From Anaerolineales bacterium (GTDB taxonomy: Bacteria; Chloroflexota; Anaerolineae; Anaerolineales; Villigracilaceae): a stretch of 64,000 bases of DNA. Below, one piece after another: positions 104-6,329 of the stretch. The notes under the pieces are model-generated. The model saw nothing but the letters and a program-made list of their open reading frames with translations. It did not search any database and was not told where the DNA came from. A program made the position numbers and the translations under genes. Location: the NCBI GenBank assembly GCA_016934715.1, contig JAFGSI010000026.1:1-64000 (forward strand). The letters are read 5' to 3'. Positions within the stretch are counted from its first letter, which is position 1. The number at the start of each line of letters is the position of its first letter.

Positions 104-817
104 TTATACCGGGGGAAAGGGATACGCGCGCCGGTCCTCAGGGGGCTGGGGGTAGACCGGATTTGCAACCAGGGCCTCCAGGCGGGACCCAAGGGCAGCC
201 AGTTCGCCCGGATTGAGAATTCCCCCCAGAGCCGCGGGCAGGTCCGGGTTGCAGGCCAGTTTTGTCCGCAGGTCGACCAGGGCGGCGATGATCTCGTCCG
301 GGACCGGCTCCCCGGCAAAGTCCCAGATCACGGTCCGCAGTTTCTCTTCTTCGTGGAAGCACAGGCCGTGGTCAATGACGTACAGGCGGCGGGTGCCCTC
401 CTGAACCAGCAGGTGGCTGCCCTTGCGGTCAGCATTGTTGACCAGCAGGTCAAACAGGGCCACCGGGCGCAGGCGCTGACGGTCTTCGGGCTGGAAGCTG
501 AAGTACTGGTAGTTGGGATCGTACTTGATGAACTGCTGCAGCGAACCCGGGCCGAAGGGCCCTTCCCGCAGGACCGTGAAGGGGACAAAGCCGAAGCCGA
601 GCGCCTCGCTGACCAGATAGGCTGCCACCTCGCGCCCGGCCAGGGAGGCTTCGGGGAAGTCCCACAGGGGCTGCTCGCCGCGCATCGGCTTGTAGACCGC
701 CGGCAGGACCTCTCCCTGGTAGGCGACCTCGACCAGGAAGGTGTAATTCGAGCCCAGCAGGAACTGGCCTTTGAGTTCAATTTCGCCGTGTTCGAAAAGG
801 TCACGTTGGTTTTCCAT
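104..817 (-). CDS. SCO1664-like family protein (PI3/PI4-kinase-like fold)
   Basis: This 238-residue protein resembles the SCO1664 family (TIGR03843), shared by Actinobacteria and Chloroflexi and distantly related to phosphatidylinositol 3/4-kinases. Visible support is a segment of the type YKP then a Gly-rich turn (a possible nucleotide-binding Lys region), LFDLLVNNADRKGSHLLV in the middle (an N-N-x-D-R catalytic-loop-like motif), and VIDHGLCFH shortly after (a D-H-G metal-binding-like motif). The chosen start is the ATG at 817; a GTG at 862 would add 15 residues that do not look conserved. It lies downstream of the DUF3090 gene on the same strand, the arrangement known for these families. 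The substrate is unknown; kinase activity is an inference from the fold and motifs. Confidence 0.82.
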   Translation of the reverse strand: MENQRDLFEHGEIELKGQFLLGSNYTFLVEVAYQGEVLPAVYKPMRGEQPLWDFPEASLAGREVAAYLVSEALGFGFVPFTVLREGPFGPGSLQQFIKYDPNYQYFSFQPEDRQRLRPVALFDLLVNNADRKGSHLLVQEGTRRLYVIDHGLCFHEEEKLRTVIWDFAGEPVPDEIIAALVDLRTKLACNPDLPAALGGILNPGELAALGSRLEALVANPVYPQPPEDRRAYPFPPV

Positions 818-901
818 GGACGGGCTCACCAGATAAACCACCACAGTGCACACCGGGAGCACAGAGCCCCCTGGTGCTCTATGGCCTCCGAAGAAAAGGG
901 A

Positions 902-2477: not shown

Positions 2478-4925
2478 ATGCCGACCACCCGCCGTAAGAA
2501 ACGTTCCTCGTCCAAATCCGGGTCAACCACGTCCAGGAGCAGAACCACCTCCCGCGGTTCGGCGCGTCCTGCATCCGGGAGCAGCGCCTCCGGCGGACGC
2601 ACGCGCGCGGAGCCCTACGACGATCGACCGGAAAGCTCGACACGGCGCTCCTCGACGTCGTCGCGCTCCTCGACCGCGCGCGGCACACAACCGTCGCGGA
2701 CGAAATCGACCCGCTCGCGTAGTTCCTACGCCCCCCAGCGGACTTCGCTGCTGGGCGGCCTCTCACCCGAGCGCAAGATGGACCTGGTCGGAGCGGTCAT
2801 GGCCCTGGTGGGCCTGCTGACCATCTTGAGCCTGTTCTCGGCCAACCGCAGCAGCCTGACCGGTTCGTGGGTTGGCCTGCTGGCAACGATCTTCGGCTGG
2901 GGGGCTTACATCCTGCCCTTCGGGTTGATCGCCCTGGGGGTCTGGCTGATCGCCCGCAACGTAGAACGCCTGCCGGACCTGTCGCTCGAGCGGATCGTCG
3001 GCATGCTCCTGCTCTTCTTTAATCTGCTGGCCCTGTTTCACAGCCTGACCGGCCCGACTGGGACGGCCATCGATCGCGCCCAGGCCGGCTCAGGCGGCGG
3101 CTACGGAGGGGCCCTGATCCAGCGCGGGCTGGTGGTGGCCGTCGGCAACGCCGGGACGGCAGTGATCCTGATTGCCTGGCTGCTGATCGCCCTGGCGATG
3201 ACCTTCGACCTGAGCATGCAGGAGATGTTCGCCTGGGCCGGCCCGGTGCTGCAGAACCTGCGCCAGCGCCTTGACGAACCCTCCCGGCGGACGACCGGCC
3301 ACCTGCCTTCCGTCCCGCGTTCTGCAAGCGAACCGCGCGGCAATTTTGTCCCCTTCCAGCACCTGCCGGAGGATGCCCCGGCGGTCGAACCGCCACCCGG
3401 GGCAGCCATCCGGACCGGGATCCCGAGCGGGCCGACGATCACCTGGTCGCTACCCCGGGTGGCCGAGATCCTCGAACAGGCCGAGGCCCCGGCAGTCAAC
3501 GAGGAGTTCGTCGAGCAGCGCGCCCGGCTGATCGAGGAGACCCTGGCCTCGTTCGGGGCACCCAGCCAGGTGGTCGAAATCAGCCGCGGGCCGACGATCA
3601 CCATGTTTGGCGTCGAGCCGCTGTTCATCGAGACCCGCAACGGTCAGACACGCGTACGGGTCGGCAAGATCGCCTCCCTGGCCGATGACCTGGCCCTTGC
3701 CCTGGCAGCCCCGCGCATCCGCATCCAGGCCCCGGTACCCGGGCGCGGCTATGTTGGCATCGAAGTACCTAACGAAGAGATGGCCCTGGTCGCCTTGCGC
3801 GAGGTCGTGGAAAGCGAGGTCTTCCAGCGCGGCCGCCTGTCGTTGCGCTTTGCACTCGGCAAGGACGTCGCCGGGCATCCCAAGGCTGCCAACCTGGAAT
3901 CGATGCCGCACCTGCTGATCGCCGGGACGACCGGATCCGGTAAATCGGTGTGCGTTAATTCGATCTTGAGCTGCTTCCTGCTGCACAACACCCCTGACGA
4001 ACTGCGCCTGATCCTGGTCGACCCCAAGCGGGTTGAACTGACCGGCTACAACGGCGTCCCACACCTGCTGGCTCCGGTAGTGGTCGAGATCGAACGCGTC
4101 GTTGGCGCCCTGCAGTGGATGACCCGCGAGATGGACAACCGCTATCACAAGTTCGCCGAGATGGGCACCCGTAACATCCAGGACTACAATACCCGCATGT
4201 CCACCCAGAGCGGCAAGAAACTGCCCCACCTTGTGGTGGTGATCGACGAGTTGGCCGACCTGATGATGATCGCTCCTGATGAGACCGAACGGACGATCAC
4301 CCGCCTGGCCCAGTTGGCGCGCGCCACCGGCATCCACATGATCATCGCCACCCAGCGCCCCTCGGTGGATGTGGTCACCGGCCTGATCAAGGCCAACTTC
4401 CCGGCCCGCATTGCCTTCGCCGTGGCCTCCAATACCGACAGCCGGGTGATCCTCGACCAGCCGGGCGCCGAGCGCCTGCTCGGGCGCGGCGATATGCTCT
4501 TCCAGGCCCCCGATTCCCCGGCCCCGGTCCGGTTGCAGGGTGTCTTCGTCTCAGATGGCGAGATCAACCGCCTGGTGGATTACTGGAAAGCCCAGGCCGG
4601 GGCCAGCCCCTACGCTGCTGCCGGGACCCCCGGGTCAGCCGACTCGCCGGCCACCAGTGGCGTTCCGCTCAAGCAGGTGCCCATGTTCGAGATGGAGCCG
4701 GAGGAGAAAAGCGACCCGCTGATCAGCGAGGCAACCGACATCGTCCGGCGGGAGGGACGCGCCTCGATCTCGATGCTACAGCGCAAACTACGCATCGGCT
4801 ACACCCGCTCAGCCCGCCTGGTGGACACGCTCGAGGAGAAAGGCATCGTCGGCCCACCCGATCAGGCAACCGGCGTGCGCCAGGTGCTGGATTACGGCCC
4901 GGCCGCGCCCCCAAAGGATGCGTAG
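2478..4925 (+). CDS. ftsK: DNA translocase FtsK/SpoIIIE
   Basis: An 815-residue septal DNA pump that moves chromosomal DNA during division. The N-terminal 90 residues are Arg/Ser/Thr-rich and basic. Four or five hydrophobic helices follow at about 97-245, then a Pro-rich linker, the alpha domain, and the RecA-like motor with Walker A GTTGSGKS (483-490) and Walker B VVVIDE (Asp590). The C-terminus (about 735-815) is a winged-helix gamma domain containing LQRKLRIGYTRSARLVD, which recognises orientation sequences. It is close to the length of SpoIIIE and much shorter than E. coli FtsK. The start is the ATG at 2478; upstream frame-open sequence is antisense to rnz. It converges on the kinase-like gene at 4953. 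Confidence 0.96.
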   Translation: MPTTRRKKRSSSKSGSTTSRSRTTSRGSARPASGSSASGGRTRAEPYDDRPESSTRRSSTSSRSSTARGTQPSRTKSTRSRSSYAPQRTSLLGGLSPERKMDLVGAVMALVGLLTILSLFSANRSSLTGSWVGLLATIFGWGAYILPFGLIALGVWLIARNVERLPDLSLERIVGMLLLFFNLLALFHSLTGPTGTAIDRAQAGSGGGYGGALIQRGLVVAVGNAGTAVILIAWLLIALAMTFDLSMQEMFAWAGPVLQNLRQRLDEPSRRTTGHLPSVPRSASEPRGNFVPFQHLPEDAPAVEPPPGAAIRTGIPSGPTITWSLPRVAEILEQAEAPAVNEEFVEQRARLIEETLASFGAPSQVVEISRGPTITMFGVEPLFIETRNGQTRVRVGKIASLADDLALALAAPRIRIQAPVPGRGYVGIEVPNEEMALVALREVVESEVFQRGRLSLRFALGKDVAGHPKAANLESMPHLLIAGTTGSGKSVCVNSILSCFLLHNTPDELRLILVDPKRVELTGYNGVPHLLAPVVVEIERVVGALQWMTREMDNRYHKFAEMGTRNIQDYNTRMSTQSGKKLPHLVVVIDELADLMMIAPDETERTITRLAQLARATGIHMIIATQRPSVDVVTGLIKANFPARIAFAVASNTDSRVILDQPGAERLLGRGDMLFQAPDSPAPVRLQGVFVSDGEINRLVDYWKAQAGASPYAAAGTPGSADSPATSGVPLKQVPMFEMEPEEKSDPLISEATDIVRREGRASISMLQRKLRIGYTRSARLVDTLEEKGIVGPPDQATGVRQVLDYGPAAPPKDA

Positions 4926-4952: not shown

Positions 4953-5594
4953 TCATTGCATGTACAACCCGCCGCTGGATTCCATCCAGTCGGCGATTTT
5001 TTCCACCCGCGCGGGGATGTTGTTGTCCGAAATGTCCAGGTCCAGCCTGGGCAAGAGCGAGTCCCCCACCAGGCGCTGCATCAGTTCCTGCTCGCGGACG
5101 AAGATCGACAGGTCGTCGTACTGGTCCGGCTTTCCCGAGACCTTGAGACGCTCGGCCCGAGCGGCGGCGAACGAGTCGGGGGCCCGGGTGAGGAAGATCA
5201 GGCGGAAATTGAGCGGCAGCAGGCGCTCCTCCAGCCAACGGAAGTCGTAGTCCTTTCCATACACCTGCAGCTGGTAGGCGCGGGTCGAGATGTGAAAACG
5301 GTCGACGATCCACGAGTAGTAGCACTGGAGCTCGAACAGGCGCGCCCAGGTGGCGTAGGTCTCCATCGCCAGGGCTTCTTCATGGGGCTCAAAATTGATC
5401 GGCCCGCGGCCCCAGGGATTGTTGGTGAAGGTGCACCATTCGGCCGAGATGAGCGGAGAGTGATAGCGGTAGCGGCGCGGTCCCACGAGGCGCGGGTGTT
5501 CGTTGAGCTCGAAGGCGATCTCGGTCTTGAAGGTCAGGCGGGTGCCTTCGAGAATGATCTTGGGAGTCAGTTTGGGTCCCATCAACGGTTTCAC
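4953..5594 (-). CDS. Nucleoside/thymidylate-kinase-like protein with degenerate P-loop
   Basis: A 213-residue protein that I do not recognise as a named family, but its layout follows deoxynucleoside/thymidylate kinases. Residues 17-24 read GTRLTFKT at the place of Walker A (GxxxxGKT), with Phe replacing the penultimate Gly. DRFHISTRAYQ (98-108) matches the DR..S..AYQ substrate motif. RAERLKVSG (147-155) looks like the LID region, followed by a YDDLS and REQELM segment. The start could be GTG at 5594 (used here) or ATG at 5582; neither has well-placed SD. It converges with ftsK, leaving 27 nt between stops. Either a diverged active kinase or a nucleotide-binding protein that lost catalysis. 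Confidence 0.62.
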   Translation of the reverse strand: MKPLMGPKLTPKIILEGTRLTFKTEIAFELNEHPRLVGPRRYRYHSPLISAEWCTFTNNPWGRGPINFEPHEEALAMETYATWARLFELQCYYSWIVDRFHISTRAYQLQVYGKDYDFRWLEERLLPLNFRLIFLTRAPDSFAAARAERLKVSGKPDQYDDLSIFVREQELMQRLVGDSLLPRLDLDISDNNIPARVEKIADWMESSGGLYMQ

Positions 5595-5969: not shown

Positions 5970-6329
5970 ATGGATGACAAAATCACTATCATCGAGGGTC
6001 CCCCTCCTGTCTTTGAACCGGTCCAGGAAGAATGGGCGCTCGGGCTGAGCGAAGGCCCGCACGTCCCGCTGACCGTGCTGACCCGCCTGCGCACCTTCAA
6101 CGGTCAGGCGCTGGTCGAGCGCTGCTACCGGCGCTGGAAGTCCAACCAGCCAATCCACCTGCTGTACCGCAACGACCTCGGACTGGAGGAGCAGGCCCCG
6201 ATCGTCGCCGCCCGTTCGGTCGATACATCCGATGGGCCAGTGATCATGCTCTGGATCAGCCTGGATCCGCAGAAGGTCGAGATCGAATACGATTCCGACG
6301 ACGAAGAGTCGGACGACGAGGAGCTATAA
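5970..6329 (+). CDS. Conserved-looking hypothetical protein with acidic C-terminus
   Basis: A 119-residue soluble protein with no domain that I recognise. It starts MDDKITIIEGPPPVFEPV, has a compact middle with VPLTVLTRLRTFNGQALVERCYRRW (partly basic), then APIVAARSVDTSDGPVIMLWISL, which looks like paired beta strands, and ends in a strongly acidic Asp/Glu tail. Codon choice is like the neighbours, so it is likely a real gene. It stands alone between a divergent promoter region and a hairpin terminator (6346-6388). The acidic tail suggests interaction with a basic partner such as a ribosomal or nucleic-acid-bound protein, but this is a guess. Confidence 0.75.
   Translation: MDDKITIIEGPPPVFEPVQEEWALGLSEGPHVPLTVLTRLRTFNGQALVERCYRRWKSNQPIHLLYRNDLGLEEQAPIVAARSVDTSDGPVIMLWISLDPQKVEIEYDSDDEESDDEEL

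Follow-up and report, generated by a model that had tools for sequence, protein, structure and literature searches.

The last glycine of the Walker A motif, or P-loop (GxxxxGK[ST]), is commonly regarded as essential, and proteins are classed as ATP-binding or dead by its presence; a bulky residue at this site is expected to disturb phosphate binding. Among nucleotide kinases, thymidylate kinases (TMKs; PF02223/TIGR00041) also carry a P-loop acid, which in established TMK structures contacts the sugar of dTMP. A departure from the glycine rule exists among solved structures: YorR, a kinase of the Bacillus subtilis phage SPbeta and of phi3T (2axp, 3kb2; within phrog_761), whose PDB sequence reads MTLIILEGPDCCFKST, has the P-loop EGPDCCFKST, with Phe at the equivalent site, and its entry 3kb2 bears the title “in complex with phosphorylated GDP”. 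A search of the open-access literature returned no paper describing the YorR P-loop or the bacterial kinase family considered below, and both this family and the freedom of its P-loop position 22 appear to be undescribed in the available sources.

Here, we characterize a gene that shares this substitution, located in the window (the entire 64,000-nucleotide stretch of Anaerolineales DNA that was analysed). The minus-strand open reading frame at positions 4953–5594 encodes 213 amino acids from a GTG at 5594, free of internal stops. Since most homologues begin with M[GSP].KLTPK, translation more likely begins at the ATG at 5582 (MGPKLTPK), which would give a protein of 209 amino acids.

A P-loop with one relaxed position

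The window protein reads EGTRLTFKT at residues 16–24 (5523–5549, minus strand), as the sequence-only reading of this DNA had reported; relative to the canonical Walker A motif, the first Gly, the Lys and the Thr are kept and the last Gly is replaced by Phe22 (codon TTC, 5529–5531, minus strand). An alignment of 104 nearly full-length homologues revealed that G17, R19, L20, T21, K23 and T24 are invariant, with E16 and T18 present in 103/104 and 101/104 members, respectively. Position 22, in contrast to this near-invariant setting, hosts eight residue types (Phe in 73 members, His in 12, Leu in 9, Arg in 4, Ser and Gly in 2 each, Cys and Met in 1 each), such that the last Gly is replaced in 102 of 104 sequences and the canonical GTRLTGKT occurs in two members only (loci L110 and L073). 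Phe22 is therefore the majority state of the family and not a local mutation of an otherwise normal GKT. On a quick tree constructed with that column left out, position 22 required 18 changes, compared to zero at R19, L20, T21, K23 and T24; this number falls at the 75th percentile of all columns, which is high but not extreme. Judged from these alignments, the striking point is the freedom of site 22 inside an otherwise fixed motif. The earlier description of the P-loop as “broken” should thus be replaced by “relaxed”, given that only the last Gly varies, that Lys and Thr never do, that two members retain GKT and that YorR carries Phe as well.

Conservation extends to the remaining catalytic landmarks, two of which had been recognised from the single sequence. 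The proposed substrate signature, DRFHISTRAYQ, is a TMK-like DR motif at residues 98–108 (5271–5303, minus strand) in which D98, R99, F100, H101 and S103 are present in 104/104 members, T104 in 100/104 and Q108 in 102/104, while the Tyr of the YQ pair, Tyr107, varies. The proposed LID-like Arg pair corresponds to R146 and R149, which lie with R137 and the motif SG.P.QY within 5118–5186 (minus strand); R137, R149, Q158 and Y159 are invariant in all 104 homologues, and R146 is Arg in 102 and Lys in the other two. Between these landmarks and the P-loop side of the protein lies a family-specific stretch at residues 38–68 (GPRRYRYHSPLISAEWC.FTN.PWGRGPINF; 5391–5483, minus strand), which includes E52 just after strand 2 and in which G38, R40, Y44, W53, C54, G62, G64 and N67 are invariant. 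The low dN/dS of close pairs (mostly <0.25, about 0.016–0.21, with a median of 0.21 over 979 usable pairs; Nei–Gojobori) argues that intact copies of the gene are under purifying selection.

Kinship with YorR-type phage kinases

The AlphaFold2 model, generated with 48 family sequences as input (pLDDT 90.9, pTM 0.89), adopts a P-loop kinase fold (alpha/beta; beta1, P-loop, helix), in agreement with the kinase-like fold first supposed from the sequence; confidence is lower (75–85) over residues 38–68. Structural comparison (Foldseek, VIA-align) identified YorR of B. subtilis SPbeta as the best solved match (3kb2, Z 17.8 over 166 residues at 2.9 Å; 2axp, Z 17.4), followed by thymidylate kinases and archaeal adenylate kinases at Z of about 14–15.5. 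The link from this family to YorR among solved structures came from fold comparison only, as sequence searches of solved structures with either the protein or the family profile found no true relative. At the profile level, hhalign comparison of the family with a diverse set of phage YorR sequences gave a probability of 97.5% (E 6.4e-12, 162 columns, residues 12–208) with the P-loops in register, EGTRLTFKT aligning gap-free to EGPDCCFKS, as compared to 23% against 21 cellular TMKs and 0.5% against 17 deoxynucleoside kinases (dNKs). Since a narrow YorR set alone gave 11.6%, the family–YorR link rests on the diverse phage set together with the fold.

The two groups share the fold, the pattern EG....[x]K[ST] in which an aromatic residue substitutes for Gly, the DRF motif and an Arg-rich LID. 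However, they are only ~20% identical; in YorR, the second P-loop position is occupied by Asp (EGPD) and the core motifs KGSSFE and RGD[ED] (RGDEYI) are present, whereas the kinase family has Arg19, a longer 38–68 stretch (SAEWC.FTN.PWGRG.INF) that is absent from YorR, and SG.P.QY. Because KGSSFE and RGD[ED] are absent from the family, these motif comparisons place it as a relative of YorR-type phage kinases and not a member of that group. A search of phage records and viral contigs likewise found no close member of the kinase family.

Sampling of the YorR side suggests that the last Walker A Gly is exchangeable there as well. Among 80 YorR relatives on viral contigs (L195–L274), a set that includes many near-copies of SPbeta-type prophages, this site is Tyr in 36, Phe in 24 and Gly in 20, and the distant relatives alone (L241–L274) still show Tyr, Phe and Gly. 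The YorR precedent reduces the oddity of Phe22. Collectively, the 104 family sequences with eight residues at one site in fixed surroundings, plus the Gly/Phe/Tyr swaps of YorR, amount to a natural mutational scan, according to which this branch of nucleotide kinases would be exempt from the last-Gly rule of Walker A.

Candidate activity and acceptor

We consider it likely that the protein acts on its own as an active kinase of small molecules, with the TMK/YorR-like NMP-kinase P-loop fold and an acceptor that would most plausibly be a nucleotide, though not dTMP. Since the solved phage relative has the same swap with nucleotide bound, the enzyme is probably functional. In the proposed mechanism, the ATP phosphates would be held by main-chain amides of the 17–22 loop along with Lys23 and Thr24 (the latter via Mg2+), while Arg99 of the DR motif and Arg137, Arg146 and Arg149 would bind the acceptor and bring about LID closure. 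This lineage would be able to dispense with the last P-loop Gly, with Phe, His, Leu, Arg, Ser, Cys, Met or Gly serving at its site. The 38–68 stretch, which would replace the usual acceptor region, probably makes the acceptor pocket. Along with the exchange of the P-loop Asp/Glu for Arg19, this replacement is the basis on which an acceptor other than dTMP is favoured.

The sequence-only reading had left two options, a variant yet active P-loop or a nucleotide sensor. The second, in which a pseudokinase would bind nucleotide with its altered loop and signal without phosphoryl transfer, could draw on the near-universal absence of the last P-loop Gly from the family and on Arg19 at the position of the TMK acid. 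We nonetheless regard it as improbable and find no positive support for it: K23, T24, D98, R99, R137 and R149 are invariant, and residue 146 is always basic; site 22 is variable instead of a fixed new signature, with GKT in two members; the YorR relatives alternate between Gly, Phe and Tyr at the equivalent site; and both a fused signalling domain and a partner conserved across phyla are absent. As the recognisable catalytic residues are all kept under strong purifying selection, the “variant yet active” option is preferred. The points that stand against an active kinase are that the gene is dispensable, that it has decayed in several relatives, that a pathway partner is absent across phyla, that a bulky residue in place of the last Gly would be expected to interfere with phosphate binding and that the 38–68 region is modelled with lower confidence.

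That the protein is an ordinary, second dTMP kinase is a further reading, which we consider very improbable. The family resembles TMKs in fold and LID arginines, and the DR motif followed by S..AYQ occurs in it as DRFH.ST..[YF]Q (DRF..ST..YQ against DRY..ST.AYQ, or DR[YF]..ST..YQ overall); the best Pfam match of the window protein is indeed Thymidylate_kin. This match is weak (E 0.048; 6e-5 at best among 48 family members) and lies below the cut-off (13.8 versus 27 bits), as does the NCBIfam model DTMP_kinase (TIGR00041; 11 versus 83 bits), in keeping with the earlier failure to recognise a named family. Furthermore, the P-loop Asp/Glu (EGx[DE]), found in 21/21 cellular TMKs, is Arg19 in 104/104 members, the last P-loop Gly is replaced and Tyr107 varies. 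For the helix-3 F...R pair that reads thymine, an equivalent Arg is not evident in an alignment that is uncertain over helix 3. The genome has its own normal tmk (C40:37520–38083; 163.5 bits) in addition to dNK genes, so the protein is not the housekeeping TMK. Taking the invariant Arg19 and this resident tmk together, we infer that the kinase is probably not a dTMP kinase.

Deoxynucleoside kinases (PF01712) offer a similarly partial likeness. They share the P-loop kinase fold, with dCK and the M. mycoides dAK in the Foldseek list, and a Glu just after strand 2, to which E52 presumably corresponds as a counterpart of the dNK catalytic Glu. In contrast, the family has DRFH.ST in place of [ED]RS, its P-loop differs and the profile match is negligible.

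Retaining the same fold and activity, the acceptor could instead be a non-nucleotide such as a cofactor precursor, a sugar or a xenobiotic. This would accommodate the unique conserved 38–68 stretch and Arg19, and NRK1, gluconokinase, APS kinase and shikimate kinase appear in the Foldseek list, although at lower rank; it is rather unlikely, given that the closest relatives in both sequence and fold are YorR and nucleotide kinases. A bolder version of the active-kinase reading is possible but doubtful: that of a widespread family with a functionally neutral residue at the last P-loop Gly, an Arg inverting the P-loop acid and, as substrate, a nucleotide or cofactor lacking a known dedicated bacterial kinase. 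The family offers a predicted enzyme activity that is easily tested.

Distribution, context and repeated loss

The family defined here is unnamed and unlisted in Pfam or NCBIfam. Scanning of genome contigs recovered 76 loci at 60–88% identity, nearly all near full length and matching far beyond chance, in Chloroflexota, Verrucomicrobiota, Lentisphaerota, Ignavibacteriota, Acidobacteriota, Sumerlaeota, Myxococcota, KSB1 and others. The 104 homologues span >10 phyla, where members assigned to Nitrosomonadales, Bacteroidetes and similar bins may have been misbinned; a member is also carried by Anaeromyxobacter sp. PSR-1 (L058), whose record is not titled as a MAG. Strong matches were found in about two dozen of 400 Chloroflexota genomes, and whole-genome searches of the window's relatives gave matches in 26/101, some of them merely fragments. 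No PADLOC anti-phage defence model was matched by the window protein (0 families), and a role in such defence was rejected on this basis.

Comparison of neighbouring genes across phyla identified no recurring partner, and an operon partner in other phyla was rejected accordingly. The neighbouring ftsK, to which the sequence-only reading had drawn attention, is real: it is complete (PF01580, PF17854, PF09397), ends at 4925 and adjoins the kinase gene tail to tail. This adjacency is incidental, however, as ftsK-type sequence lies beside 7/108 loci only, and two of these represent the window itself. On the other side, within the window's own lineage, a small acidic open reading frame at 5970–6326 (plus strand; 119 amino acids, without a Pfam match) is divergent from the kinase gene; this arrangement occurs in about 30 loci. 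It was rejected as a kinase partner because it occurs in 95/101 relatives with or without the kinase, and is itself a gene without a name that is nearly ubiquitous in this lineage.

The acidic open reading frame nevertheless marks where the kinase gene once stood. In genomes G002 and G008, only a C- or N-terminal kinase remnant persists beside it (L188 641–808 and L189 570–707), and G393 retains short N- and C-terminal pieces that include a stop (L194 655–968). Because remnants adjoin the acidic open reading frame in relatives, the kinase gene was once resident in the lineage and was repeatedly lost; its presence in only 26/101 relatives, along with its decay in several, suggests a gene that is useful but dispensable. 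A further copy in G018 (L191 731–1279) is in frame but lacks ~25 residues (roughly 123–147, including R137 and R146), which may reflect a natural deletion, a dying gene or an assembly error. Elsewhere in the window, positions 104–862 (minus strand) encode a weakly HipA_2 / PI3_PI4_kinase-like protein that adjoins a DUF3090 gene and an MBL-fold hydrolase.
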